A stretch of 53,591 nt of DNA from an uncultured Eubacteriales bacterium (lineage in GTDB: Bacteria > Bacillota > Clostridia > Oscillospirales > Oscillospiraceae), in contig ONEB01000016.1 of assembly GCA_900316745.1 (NCBI GenBank), positions 1-53,591 of the forward strand. Direction: 5' to 3'. Below are positions 4,931-25,384 of this stretch, one piece after another; positions within the stretch are counted from its first letter, which is position 1, and each line of letters starts with the position of its first letter. The notes under the pieces are model-generated. The model ran no database searches, was not told where the DNA came from, and worked only from the letters and a program-made list of their open reading frames with translations. The position numbers and the translations under genes were made by a program.

Positions 4931-4974
4931 AACAAAAAAGAGACAGCGGCGTCTTCGCAGACGTCGTTGTCTCT
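4931..4974 (-). promoter_or_regulatory. glnN leader: ANTAR-type hexaloop hairpin inside an intrinsic terminator
   Basis: Read on the minus strand, a 16-bp imperfect stem (4959-4974 with 4939-4954) ends in a T run, forming a terminator that begins about ten bases after the -10 box. The 5' arm can fold alone as AGAC, loop AACGAC, GTCT: a six-base loop with A1 and G4 as in ANTAR target RNAs. The 3' arm offers a second AGAC/GTCT hairpin with loop GCCGCT. Terminator and small hairpins are mutually exclusive. Confidence 0.8.
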
Positions 4975-4984
4975 GATGATCGAC

Positions 4985-5020
4985 ATTTTACGCTGGATTT
5001 GCCACGCAGTCAATTGTCAA
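4985..5020 (-). promoter_or_regulatory. glnN promoter with the TTGACAATTGAC box
   Basis: On the minus strand TTGACT (5008-5013), 17 bases, TAAAAT (4985-4990). The -35 is the second half of a direct repeat, TTGACAATTGAC, that is identical in the amt and asnB promoters. Confidence 0.85.
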
Positions 5021-5070
5021 AACGCAAAAAAATCCAGTCGAGATCACAGTCTGTTTTTACATACACTGCA

Positions 5071-5100
5071 TTGACAAACCACTGTCCTCCGGTCTAAAAT
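5071..5100 (+). promoter_or_regulatory. glmS promoter
   Basis: TTGACA (5071-5076), 18 bases, TAAAAT (5095-5100), diverging from the glnN promoter about 50 bases away. It lacks the doubled TTGAC box of the three other attenuated promoters. Confidence 0.8.
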
Positions 5101-5109
5101 ACAAATATA

Positions 5110-5150
5110 GAGCAAAGGCGCTCCGACAAGGGGTGCCTTTGCCCTTTTTT
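5110..5150 (+). promoter_or_regulatory. glmS leader: terminator with embedded hexaloop hairpin
   Basis: A 13-bp stem (5112-5124 with 5130-5142, loop GACAA) followed by six T starts 12 bases after the -10. Its 5' arm can instead fold as GAGC, loop AAAGGC, GCTC (5110-5123), again a hexaloop with A1 and G4. The stem sequence is unrelated to the glnN, amt and asnB leaders, so the shared loop rule is not simple copying. No glmS ribozyme core is visible. Confidence 0.7.
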
Positions 5151-5173
5151 ATGCTGAAAAGGAGGTTTCCATC

Positions 5174-23552: not shown

Positions 23553-23564
23553 GGTTTTTCCTCC

Positions 23565-25148
23565 TCAAATGCCGCTCTCGCCGTAGTTGGACAGCACGCG
23601 CGCCGACGGATCATCCACGTCGCAGCCAGGCCAGGTCTTGTTCGGCATCCAGAAGTCGCGAATCATCTGCGCCTGTCCGGGATAGTGCCGCTCGAAGATT
23701 TCTCGATAGAGCAGGCTCTCTTTCGTAAACGGCGGGCAATAATCGTACTGCCTGCATTTTTCGTGAAATTCGGCGTCCGAGTAGAGCGACTCGGCGTAGT
23801 CCTTCAGGTCGTCCACCATAGAGTGTCCAACTGCATCAGAGAACGCAGCCTTCTGCCGCCAGAGGATCTCGTCCGGCAAGAGATGGTCCTCTTCAAACGC
23901 ATGGCGCAGGAGGTATTTCCCCATGCCGTAGGTGTTTAATTTCATCGCCGGGTCGACGGACATGACGCAGCGCACGAAATCGAGATCGCCGAAGGGCACG
24001 CGAGCCTCGAGGGAGTTCATCGAAATGCAGCGATCCGCGCGCAGCACGTCGTACATGTGCAGCTCGTCCACGCGCTTTTTCGCCTCGCGCTGGAACTCCT
24101 CCGGCGAGGGGGCGAAGTCGGTGTATTTATAGCCGAAGAGCTCGTCGCTGATCTCGCCCGTCATCAGCACACGCACATCCGTTCGTTCGTGGATCGCCTT
24201 GCAGCAGAGATACATGCCCATGCTGGCGCGGATCGTGGTGATGTCCCAGGTGCCAAGCATGGCGATGACCTCGTCCAGCGCGTCCAATACATCCTGCCGC
24301 GTCATGTATACCTCTGTATGATCCGCGCCGATGAAGTCGGCAACCATGCTGGCGTATTTGAGATCGATCGCGTCGGTGTCCATGCCGATGGCGAAGGTGC
24401 GGATCGGGCGGTCCAGCAGCCGCGCAGAGATGGCGCAGACGAGGCTGCTGTCCAGCCCGCCGGAGAGCAGAAAGCCCAGCGGCGCGTCGGCGTCGAGCCG
24501 CTTTTCCACGCCGCGGATGAGCTTATCACGGATGCTCCGACAGACGGTCTCAAGATCGTCGTGCACGACGTTCTCCACCTCCGTCACGTCCGCATAGCGG
24601 ACGAAGGCGCCGTCGGCGTAATAGTGTCCCGGCGGGAAGGGACGGATCTCGGCGCAGAGACCGACAAGGTTTTTCGCCTCGCTCGCAAAGACGATGTTCC
24701 CCGCCGCATCATAGCCGTAATAGAGCGGGCGGATGCCGATGGGGTCGCGCGCAGCGATGAAGCGATCTCGCGCTGCGTCATAGAGAATCATGGCAAACTC
24801 TGCGTCAAGCATGGAGAACATACCGAGCCCGTACTCGCGGTAGAGCGGGAGAATGATCTCGCAGTCCGAGCCGCTCTTGAAGGAATAGCCCCTCTGCTCG
24901 AGCATGCTTTTTACCGGGCGGAACCCGTAGAGCTCTCCGTTGCAGACGCACAGATCCCCGTCCAGATGAAACGGCTGCATCCCTGTCTCGTCCAACCCCA
25001 TGATGGCGAGCCTGTGAAAGCAGAGGCATCCCTTCCCCGCAGGCTCGATGCGGGACATGTCCGGCCCGCGGGACTTGGTGCGATTGAAATACGCCCACAC
25101 CTCATTTTCGTCCAGAACCAGTTTCGTAAAGCCCATGATGGAACACAT
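23565..25148 (-). CDS. asnB: Glutamine-hydrolysing asparagine synthetase
   Basis: Makes asparagine from aspartate, ATP and glutamine. The 527-residue product begins with nucleophile Cys2 (MCSIMGF), which fixes the start at ATG 25148; longer in-frame extensions would bury it. The glutaminase domain covers residues 1 to about 190 (LCVCNGELYGF). The synthetase ATP loop is SGGLDSS at 229-235, followed by GMDTDAIDLKYA and the MTGEISDELFGYKY segment. It is first gene of asnB-pyrG-guaA'-purA. A leader of about 200 bases contains an ANTAR-type attenuator and a second structured RNA. Confidence 0.96.
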   Translation of the reverse strand: MCSIMGFTKLVLDENEVWAYFNRTKSRGPDMSRIEPAGKGCLCFHRLAIMGLDETGMQPFHLDGDLCVCNGELYGFRPVKSMLEQRGYSFKSGSDCEIILPLYREYGLGMFSMLDAEFAMILYDAARDRFIAARDPIGIRPLYYGYDAAGNIVFASEAKNLVGLCAEIRPFPPGHYYADGAFVRYADVTEVENVVHDDLETVCRSIRDKLIRGVEKRLDADAPLGFLLSGGLDSSLVCAISARLLDRPIRTFAIGMDTDAIDLKYASMVADFIGADHTEVYMTRQDVLDALDEVIAMLGTWDITTIRASMGMYLCCKAIHERTDVRVLMTGEISDELFGYKYTDFAPSPEEFQREAKKRVDELHMYDVLRADRCISMNSLEARVPFGDLDFVRCVMSVDPAMKLNTYGMGKYLLRHAFEEDHLLPDEILWRQKAAFSDAVGHSMVDDLKDYAESLYSDAEFHEKCRQYDYCPPFTKESLLYREIFERHYPGQAQMIRDFWMPNKTWPGCDVDDPSARVLSNYGESGI

Positions 25149-25198
25149 TCCGATCACACTCCCTGTATGAAAATTTCCCTTCCGGGATGGATACACGG

Positions 25199-25282
25199 AA
25201 AAGCCCTCTCCGGGGCGATGGGAGAAGCATTCGGAGGAGAGTCGAAGACTCCGAACAGGATTGAATTGCCAAAGGAGAGGGC
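25199..25282 (-). ncRNA. Second structured element in the asnB leader
   Basis: On the minus strand GCCCTCTCC (25274-25282) pairs with GGAGAGGGC (25203-25211) and is followed by TTTTCC. Inside is a hairpin, TTCGGAGTC with TTC loop and GACTC...CTCCGAA. Outer stem, TTTGG and GCCCC flanks match the element after nadE at 11570-11663, while interior sequences differ and partly covary. It lies between the ANTAR-type terminator and the start codon, so it could act as a second attenuator or a riboswitch. Ligand unknown. Confidence 0.55.
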
Positions 25283-25294
25283 AGGAATCCGCAA

Positions 25295-25339
25295 GCAAAA
25301 AAAGAGACAAAGACGCCTGAAAAAGACGTCTTTGTCTCT
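25295..25339 (-). promoter_or_regulatory. asnB leader: ANTAR-type hexaloop hairpin inside an intrinsic terminator
   Basis: On the minus strand a long stem (25325-25339 with 25303-25317) followed by seven T forms a terminator starting about ten bases after the -10. The 5' arm folds alone as AGAC, loop AAAGAC, GTCT, with A1 and G4. A second AGGC/GTCT hairpin is possible but its loop lacks A1 and G4. The loop differs from glnN and amt (AACGAC) by one compensated base in the terminator stem. Confidence 0.8.
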
Positions 25340-25348
25340 GATGAAGGC

Positions 25349-25384
25349 ATTGTACACCGGAATGCCCGGACCGTCAATTGTCAA
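25349..25384 (-). promoter_or_regulatory. asnB promoter with the TTGACAATTGAC box
   Basis: On the minus strand the doubled box TTGACAATTGAC is followed by a 17-base spacer from TTGACG (25372-25377) to TACAAT (25349-25354). The box is identical to those of glnN and amt while spacers differ. Confidence 0.85.

Follow-up and report, generated by a model that had tools for sequence, protein, structure and literature searches.

Four operons with a common leader

The window analysed here comprises positions 1 to 53,591 (53,591 nucleotides, nt) of contig ONEB01000016.1 of an uncultured Eubacteriales bacterium of the family Oscillospiraceae (assembly GCA_900316745.1). Four of its operons, glnN, glmS, amt-nadE and asnB-pyrG-(guaA fragment)-purA, start alike, with a promoter, a hairpin with a six-base loop (hexaloop) and an intrinsic terminator, and a gene for an ANTAR-domain regulator lies among them. 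The promoters are of the sigma-70 type, with the form TTGAC(A/T/G)-17/18-TA(A/C)AAT. The hairpin follows 9–12 nt after the end of the -10 box, and at 4/4 leaders it has 4 base pairs (bp) and a 6-nt loop with A at position 1 and G at position 4 (A1/G4). The features are as follows; R1 and R2 are covariance models described further below.

2805..4898, minus: glnN, type III glutamine synthetase, 697 aa as translated (Pfam GSIII_N, Gln-synt_C)
4985..5013, minus: glnN promoter, -35 TTGACT 5013..5008, 17-nt spacer, -10 TAAAAT 4990..4985 (sequence; R2 match 4958-5013)
4959..4972, minus: glnN hexaloop hairpin AGAC-AACGAC-GTCT, 12 nt past -10 (sequence and scans)
4929..4974, minus: glnN leader terminator and U-run, with the hexaloop as its 5′ arm (sequence, looser scan, folding energy)
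5071..5100, plus: glmS promoter, TTGACA 5071-5076, 18-nt spacer, TAAAAT 5095-5100 (sequence; R2 match 5071-5124)
5110..5123, plus: glmS hexaloop hairpin GAGC-AAAGGC-GCTC, 9 nt past -10 (scans)
5108..5151, plus: glmS leader terminator and U-run (scan, folding energy)
5174..7000, plus: glmS, glutamine-fructose-6-phosphate aminotransferase (Pfam GATase_6, SIS)
7074..8279, plus: glnA, type I glutamine synthetase, immediately upstream of the ANTAR gene (Pfam)
8310..8900, plus: ANTAR regulator, 196 aa, with a receiver-like domain, a long helix and an ANTAR domain at residues 139-190 (Pfam, alignment, AlphaFold2 (AF2) model)
8959..8987, plus: amt promoter, TTGACT 8959-8964, 17-nt spacer, TAAAAT 8982-8987 (sequence; R2 match 8959-9014)
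9000..9013, plus: amt hexaloop hairpin AGAC-AACGAC-GTCT, 12 nt past -10 (motif count and scan)
8998..9040, plus: amt leader terminator and U-run (scan, R1, folding energy)
9078..10805, plus: amt, ammonium transporter with a C-terminal PII domain (Pfam)
10802..11560, plus: nadE, NAD synthase, overlapping amt (Pfam)
25349..25377, minus: asnB promoter, TTGACG 25377..25372, 17-nt spacer, TACAAT 25354..25349 (sequence; R2 match 25323-25377)
25324..25337, minus: asnB hexaloop hairpin AGAC-AAAGAC-GTCT, 11 nt past -10 (motif count and scan)
25292..25339, minus: asnB leader terminator and U-run (sequence, scan, folding energy)
23565..25136, minus: asnB, asparagine synthase (Pfam)
21957..23552, minus: pyrG, CTP synthase (Pfam)
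21443..21928, minus: guaA fragment between pyrG and purA, with ATP-binding and GMP_synt_C parts and without the amidotransferase half (Pfam)
20151..21425, minus: purA, adenylosuccinate synthetase (Pfam)

A first-pass annotation, made from the letters of the window, had described four leaders of promoter and terminator-arm hairpin, and sequence and scans place them where it did. The four loop sequences that it gave are also present, but its order of loops does not follow its order of genes: AACGAC belongs to glnN, AAAGGC to glmS, AACGAC to amt and AAAGAC to asnB. Scans of the window show that the hexaloop hairpin is the 5′ arm of the terminator at 4/4 leaders, so that the putative binding site and the terminator would share the same bases, as had been proposed. 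The proposal that the transcript begins at the hairpin likewise agrees with the promoters, as far as start sites can be predicted from them. The glnN terminator was missed in a strict scan and caught in a looser one, because its stem has two mismatches. Minimum free energies are -19 to -25 kcal/mol for the window leaders and -3.5 to -5.0 kcal/mol for the hexaloop alone.

Allowing at most one mismatch, the window contains the motif GACAAMGRCGTC 9 times, whereas 100 shuffles gave 1.3 on average and 5 at most; the comparative tests below are stronger evidence than this count. No hexaloop leader of its own was found at the window glnA or at the ANTAR gene, both of which follow glmS on the same strand. 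A promoter-like TTGCAA-17-TAAAAT was read by eye before glnA at 7009-7037 (+).

Three of the four promoters have in common TTGACAATTGAC, a near-repeat of the -35 element (5008-5019 (-), 8953-8964 (+) and 25372-25383 (-)). The same three share the start CATCAGAGACAA, and the glmS promoter has neither.

Comparative tests of the hairpin

Loci surrounding 60 homologs of the ANTAR protein from the family were fetched and scanned with loop identity left free. Behind a nearby promoter, terminator 5′ arms contained 103 hairpins with a 4-bp stem and a 6-nt loop; the loop was A1/G4 in 55 of these, in 39/60 loci. Among terminator-arm hairpins without such a promoter, A1/G4 was found in 42/628.

A gene-first set was compiled without regard to the hexaloop. 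It comprised 297 nitrogen-related and neighbouring genes from 70 loci, the sole criterion being a promoter followed by a terminator; some of the gene references themselves came from leader-bearing loci. This yielded 91 leaders, 90 of them unique, before glnN (40/42), a glxB-like amidotransferase gene (15/18), pyrG (14/30), glnA (6/65), asnB (4/21), guaA (3/12), glmS (3/9), amt (2/16), and once each before purF, gltB, gdhA and a gltA-like gene. Within this set no leader was found at the ANTAR gene (0/64), gltD (0/4) or nadE (0/3).

A 4-bp/6-nt hairpin lies near the -10 box in 82/90 unique leaders, whereas 200 single-base shuffles gave 15.8 on average and at most 26. Loops of 8 and 10 nt also exceeded the shuffles (66/90 and 56/90), which is taken as the outer pairs of the same stems. 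Among the 82 hairpin leaders, 69 are A1/G4 and 12 are G1/G4, and one, at L152, has by eye a G1/G4-type hairpin in another register. The conservation of A1/G4 in homologous leaders that the first-pass annotation had anticipated is thus seen in 69/90. In the 66 leaders with a single candidate hairpin, G4 and the C-G closing pair are invariant (66/66), and the first loop base is A in 55 of them and G in the other 11. The distance from -10 to hairpin is 8–15 nt in 69/69 A1/G4 leaders.

In some genomes G1 replaces A1 (L153, L157, L158, L160, L167 and L182), and L157, L167 and L182 each show this in a pair of leaders from a single genome. The pattern suggests that the specificity of the protein has changed there.

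When leaders were anchored on the loop without any stem criterion (89/90 leaders), the three pairs under the closing pair were Watson-Crick or G-U in 86, 86 and 84 of 89; the next pair outward forms in 66/89 and the sixth in 44/89. At the pair adjoining the closing pair there are 29 G-U and 1 A-C, a contrast that fades farther out (3 and 0, 2 and 2, 5 and 10). Most rows of alignment A3 had been selected for having a four-pair hairpin, and none for a fifth pair; this fifth pair forms in 46/64 rows, as AU, GC, UA, GU and CG. The predicted hexaloop stem covaries.

The inverted repeat past the start site might instead be a DNA operator bound by a repressor of the GlnR/TnrA type or of another kind, with its resemblance to a terminator secondary. 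The arms are palindromic, and at about +4 to +21 of each promoter they lie in a usual repressor position. However, stems differ between leaders at 17/17 loci with at least two A1/G4 leaders, and the window genome has three stem types, a diversity that a DNA operator would not allow. The excess of G-U over A-C next to the closing pair (29 against 1) preserves pairing in RNA but spoils a palindrome in DNA. In 64 aligned leaders the asymmetric loop (A1, A2, G4) is found without exception on the transcribed strand, and overlap with a terminator is near-universal (20/22 matches of model R2 outside its training set). We regard such an operator as extremely improbable.

Genes downstream of the leaders

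Downstream of 47/52 sites the protein matched a nitrogen or glutamine reference by blastp. The other five include guaA and gdhA, recognised through NCBIfam, one gene that we take to be gltA-like, and two unreadable ones. For the class and named sets the genes are glnN (41), glxB (24), glnA (10), amt (3), pyrG (3) and glmS, asnB, guaA, purF and gdhA (2 each), with seven others: four asnA-like genes, the gene at L236 (see below), a Butyrivibrio dapL and one unread. Three of the asnA-like genes were identified by eye; the one tested fell below the NCBIfam cut-off because the gene is cut. The labels glxB, guaA and purF lean partly on weak matches to related references. Nearly all named genes are predicted to encode enzymes that make or consume glutamine, or proteins that take up or fix ammonia.

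At L369 (5397 +), in Butyrivibrio sp. YAB3001, a promoter-proximal A1/G4 hexaloop terminator stands before a gene for LL-diaminopimelate aminotransferase (dapL).

Distribution of the leaders and co-occurrence with ANTAR genes

Covariance model R2 was built from 64 leaders, from the -35 box to the hairpin end, with the hexaloop as its sole structure and the terminator excluded. In the window genome (2.44 Mb, 92.5% complete), where the window ANTAR domain is the only one found, it gave five matches at E<=0.01: the four window leaders and G000:C14:70259-70315. By eye, this fifth leader has the same promoter, a hairpin CGGC-AAAGGC-GTCG and a terminator, and the gene behind it is a second type III glutamine synthetase. 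The four leaders that had been put forward are confirmed, but the genome holds at least five. The gltB of this genome has no leader by eye and no R2 match. The window leaders match no Rfam family at gathering score; sub-threshold Rfam matches in the asnB leader were taken as chance.

At E<=0.01, 10/10 genomes of the genus have at least one R2 match. The matches that were read lie before glnN, asnB, amt, glmS or pyrG; a weak match at G005:C15 is no site of this kind. The model R1, narrower and built earlier from ten genus leaders with the terminator included, matched 6/10 genus genomes. Confinement of the leader to those six, which have a close ANTAR protein, was rejected as an artefact of the narrow model, R2 finding it in 10/10 with a different stem. 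Of 29 inspected R1 matches in the family, 18 had an A1/G4 hexaloop and 11 did not; R1 matches alone are not evidence. Three genus loci, L027, L028 and L029, have a different ANTAR gene (identity about 36-39% across 80-92 residues), and no nitrogen reference gene was recognised in the stretch fetched around it.

A covariance-model search of the kind that the first-pass annotation had suggested, run here with R2, detected leaders across family and class, concentrated in genomes that carry ANTAR genes. The class sample held 196 genomes, 100 with a Pfam ANTAR match and 96 without. At E<=1e-4, R2 matched 50/100 of the former and 2/96 of the latter (52/196 in all), and 35/83 against 2/96 with 17 training genomes left out; at E<=0.001 the figures were 59/100 and 10/96. 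In the family, 107/300 genomes matched at E<=1e-4, namely 89/164 genomes with a match to the window ANTAR protein and 18/136 without, or 64/135 against 18/136 without the training genomes. As half of the ANTAR-positive class genomes lack an R2 match, further targets or further ANTAR types exist. Of the 30 top R2 matches in the class, 22 lay outside the training set, and 20 of these 22 overlap a terminator, against 1/220 shuffles; 19 stand before a named gene (carA and gatD included) and three do not. The glnA gene directly precedes the ANTAR gene at 56/60 family, 30/60 class and 77/80 named loci, the named loci overlapping the family loci.

The matches in 18/136 family genomes without an ANTAR-protein match and in 2/96 ANTAR-negative class genomes, one of which (G345) has a well-formed leader (L381), would suit attenuators whose reader is a different RNA-binding protein, or else an RNA or metabolite. 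Yet an ANTAR domain can be present where BLAST gives no match, as in G261, G153 and G243, whose matches to the window protein are weak or lacking, and co-occurrence with ANTAR genes is strong. The glnA-ANTAR pair adjoins regulated genes, no Rfam family is matched at gathering score, and the A1/G4 loop with its C-G closing pair is the choice of EutV and NasR in the excerpts of PMC3369931 and PMC7496416 that are cited here. A reader other than an ANTAR protein is very unlikely.

The ANTAR protein

The C-terminal ANTAR domain (PF03861) scores 41.8 bits against a Pfam cut-off of 27.3, and Response_reg falls under its cut-off. In 15 homologs the phospho-acceptor site of the receiver-like domain is Asn (13), Ala (1) or Cys (1), and no acidic pair was found at positions 13-14; the signal is therefore probably not phosphorylation. 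With EutV residue numbering based on an offset of 2 deduced for the PDB chain, the RNA-contact positions K149, E160 and M172 are kept in 15/15 homologs and R175 in 12/15. The Y164 position is His in 14/15, as in AmiR, and an Arg adjoining the R142 position is invariant. The AF2 model (predicted local distance difference test 90.9, predicted template modelling score 0.69) has EutV, Rv1626 and AmiR as its first six PDB matches, and its best TM-score is 0.77, to RNA-bound EutV (6ww6).

One hairpin or two

Paired hexaloop hairpins, as assumed in the first-pass annotation, fit the known systems. Two hairpins are demanded by the models of PMC3369931 and PMC8164766, in the excerpts cited, and the biochemically tested ANTAR targets in the papers cited are all tandem; for amiE this is given by PMC3369931. 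EutV needs the first hairpin, P1, of eutP, deletion of which abolished induction, and its P1/P2 linkers are 5-12 nt (PMC3369931).

The leaders described here have a single hairpin. Within 50 nt upstream, another A1/G4 hairpin accompanied the hexaloop in 0/69 leaders, against 11/276 control windows; a second hairpin downstream was seen in 4/69. If the start lies seven bases past -10, the hairpin would stand at about +3 to +9, and the start site predicted from the promoter would leave no room for a second hairpin upstream.

A target of the usual tandem kind could be hidden, with ANTAR control real, if an upstream promoter had gone unrecognised and gave a longer leader with a divergent P1. The start sites here are those predicted from promoters, and the tandem form of the tested targets favours this explanation. 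Against it, upstream hairpins are lacking in the scan just given, which covers the A1/G4 type in cis and far more than the published linker lengths, and in the aligned leaders the upstream 50-nt stretch is a well-formed -35/-10 promoter at constant distance. We think a hidden tandem target unlikely.

Tandem hairpins were also sought in 60 class ANTAR loci, and the same kind of scan was made on 80 named loci, each locus being block-shuffled once; the named set shares loci with the family set and is not independent of it. The class loci gave three tandem-hairpin sites and 22 single promoter-proximal sites in 19/60 loci, so both layouts exist in the class. Two of the tandem sites lie in one eut locus, before EutA (NCBIfam over cut-off) and before an iron-type alcohol dehydrogenase; among the 22 single sites, L236, before a major facilitator superfamily-like gene, is doubtful. 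The named loci gave 76 single sites in 49 loci and 0 tandem. The predicted single hairpin is a real departure from known ANTAR targets.

At the third class tandem site (L239 12662-12715 (+)), which belongs to another genome of the class, the downstream gene is a glnA; the tandem layout, as predicted from sequence, thus occurs before at least one nitrogen gene.

Proposed regulon and mechanism

We consider it quite probable that the leaders belong to a NitR-like antitermination regulon for glutamine and ammonia metabolism, in which a pseudo-receiver ANTAR protein would act on a single hexaloop at the 5′ transcript end of each leader. The attenuation regulon read by an ANTAR protein that had been proposed for this window is, in this form, supported by the single ANTAR gene, the EutV/NasR-type loop, the co-occurrence, the stem covariation and the glutamine and ammonia genes downstream. 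The window ANTAR protein presumably controls the leaders.

Several observations weigh against this reading. The class contrast is weaker at E<=0.01 (65/100 ANTAR-positive against 25/96 ANTAR-negative genomes). At E<=1e-4 no R2 match was found in 75/164 ANTAR-matched family genomes and 50/100 ANTAR-positive class genomes, and 18 family genomes have R2 matches but, as judged by protein comparison, no match to the window ANTAR protein. In the family locus sets the linkage of leader and ANTAR gene is partly by design, because ANTAR genes were the starting point for choosing the loci. At the outermost selected pair of the stem A-C equals G-U (2 and 2), and at the fifth pair A-C exceeds it (10 against 5). 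The EutV RNA-contact positions R142, K147, R168, N173 and R177 are changed in the window protein. Finally, a lone hairpin would not be expected to suffice, because EutV needs P1 and NasR binds a lone hairpin ~12-fold more weakly (P2 alone at about 12 uM, the pair at about 1 uM, in the excerpt of PMC7496416).

In the mechanism that we propose, RNA polymerase would start about 3-8 nt before the hairpin, as judged from the promoter. If left unbound, the hairpin bases would pair onward into the terminator, and transcription would stop after some 44-49 nt. Active ANTAR protein (8310-8900) would capture the A1/G4 hexaloop as it emerges from the polymerase and keep the terminator from forming, and glnN, glmS(-glnA-ANTAR), amt-nadE, asnB-pyrG and the second glnN would be made. 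AmiC is the sensor partner for AmiR, and by analogy the adjacent glutamine synthetase GlnA would be the leading candidate sensor. On promoter-predicted start sites and with 10-14 nt of RNA covered by polymerase, the hexaloop of the four window leaders would be free at about +27 to +34 and the U-tract would end at +44 to +49, leaving 11-19 nt for capture. The start-proximal placement may itself replace P1, because early complexes are slow or because the protein may wait at the promoter.

A bolder proposal, which is possible but which we put forward only as a doubtful one, is that this is a separate ANTAR mode. The recruitment hairpin would be dispensed with, as the target hairpin is the first RNA made; a pseudo-receiver dimer, gated through direct contact with GlnA, would wait at the promoter or polymerase and catch the hexaloop within 11-19 nt; and one protein would set both the supply of glutamine and the amidotransferases that consume it, genome-wide in Clostridia.

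According to excerpts of Walshe et al. (PMC8934654), the EutV dimer touches one hexaloop at a time and P1 is proposed as a recruitment hairpin. They call for a search for single-hexaloop sites, expected where polymerase sets no time limit (PMC8934654). The leaders predicted here would be single-hexaloop sites exactly at that time limit, where such sites were not expected, and searches for tandem motifs, as described in the excerpts of PMC3369931 and PMC8164766, would miss them. No description of a leader with one hexaloop at the very start of the transcript was found in the open-access literature, subscription papers lying outside the scope. With recognition, terminator and start site in one, a leader of <50 nt offers a direct test of P1's purpose, and the regulon would serve the glutamine economy of little-studied rumen and gut Clostridia.

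A second structured element in the window

A further structured element, GCCCTCTCC...CGGAGTC..CGACTCTCCTCCG...GGAGAGGGC-TTTT, occurs at 25203-25282 (-), between the hexaloop terminator and asnB, and at 11570-11659 (+), in the 3′ region of nadE. Genome-wide, the pattern GCCCTCTC-N45..75-GAGAGGGC is present at those two places only. The copy in the asnB leader is kept in three genus relatives (L063, L064, L065) and was not seen in the L021 leader. No Rfam family was matched.

Comparison with known systems

The leaders resemble ANTAR targets but, as predicted from sequence, lack the second hairpin, one of the features by which the family has been defined. With EutV/EutW of Enterococcus faecalis the window system shares the ANTAR domain, an A1/G4 hexaloop overlapping the terminator 5′ arm and, in the AF2 model, the same fold. 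In contrast, EutV needs P1 and P2 and has a receiver phosphorylated by a kinase, whereas the window system has a pseudo-receiver and one hairpin at the predicted transcript start.

AmiR/AmiC of Pseudomonas aeruginosa is similar in its unphosphorylated pseudo-receiver ANTAR protein and in the EAHQ stretch, with His at the EutV Tyr164 position. It differs in the tandem amiE target, and no AmiC-like partner was seen for the window protein. NasR of Klebsiella selects a C:G closing pair and an A1/G4 loop in systematic evolution of ligands by exponential enrichment (SELEX), in the excerpt of PMC7496416, the combination found in window-type leaders. It has a NIT-domain sensor, however, and reaches full affinity only with two hairpins.

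That ANTAR proteins control nitrogen genes in Firmicutes is already known, as the excerpt of PMC3369931 records. In Clostridium saccharobutylicum, NitR reportedly works through antitermination and, when nitrogen is limiting, induces genes of the glutamine synthetase/glutamate synthase (GS/GOGAT) pathway (excerpt of PMC6316151, citing Stutz et al. 2007). Both systems, from clostridial anaerobes, associate an ANTAR protein with glutamine synthetase genes; the window ANTAR gene adjoins glnA. The gene order in C. saccharobutylicum is presumably glnA-nitR. The two regulons differ in their genes: NitR governs GS/GOGAT, whereas here gltB is without a leader, and glmS, asnB-pyrG, amt-nadE and two glnN have one.

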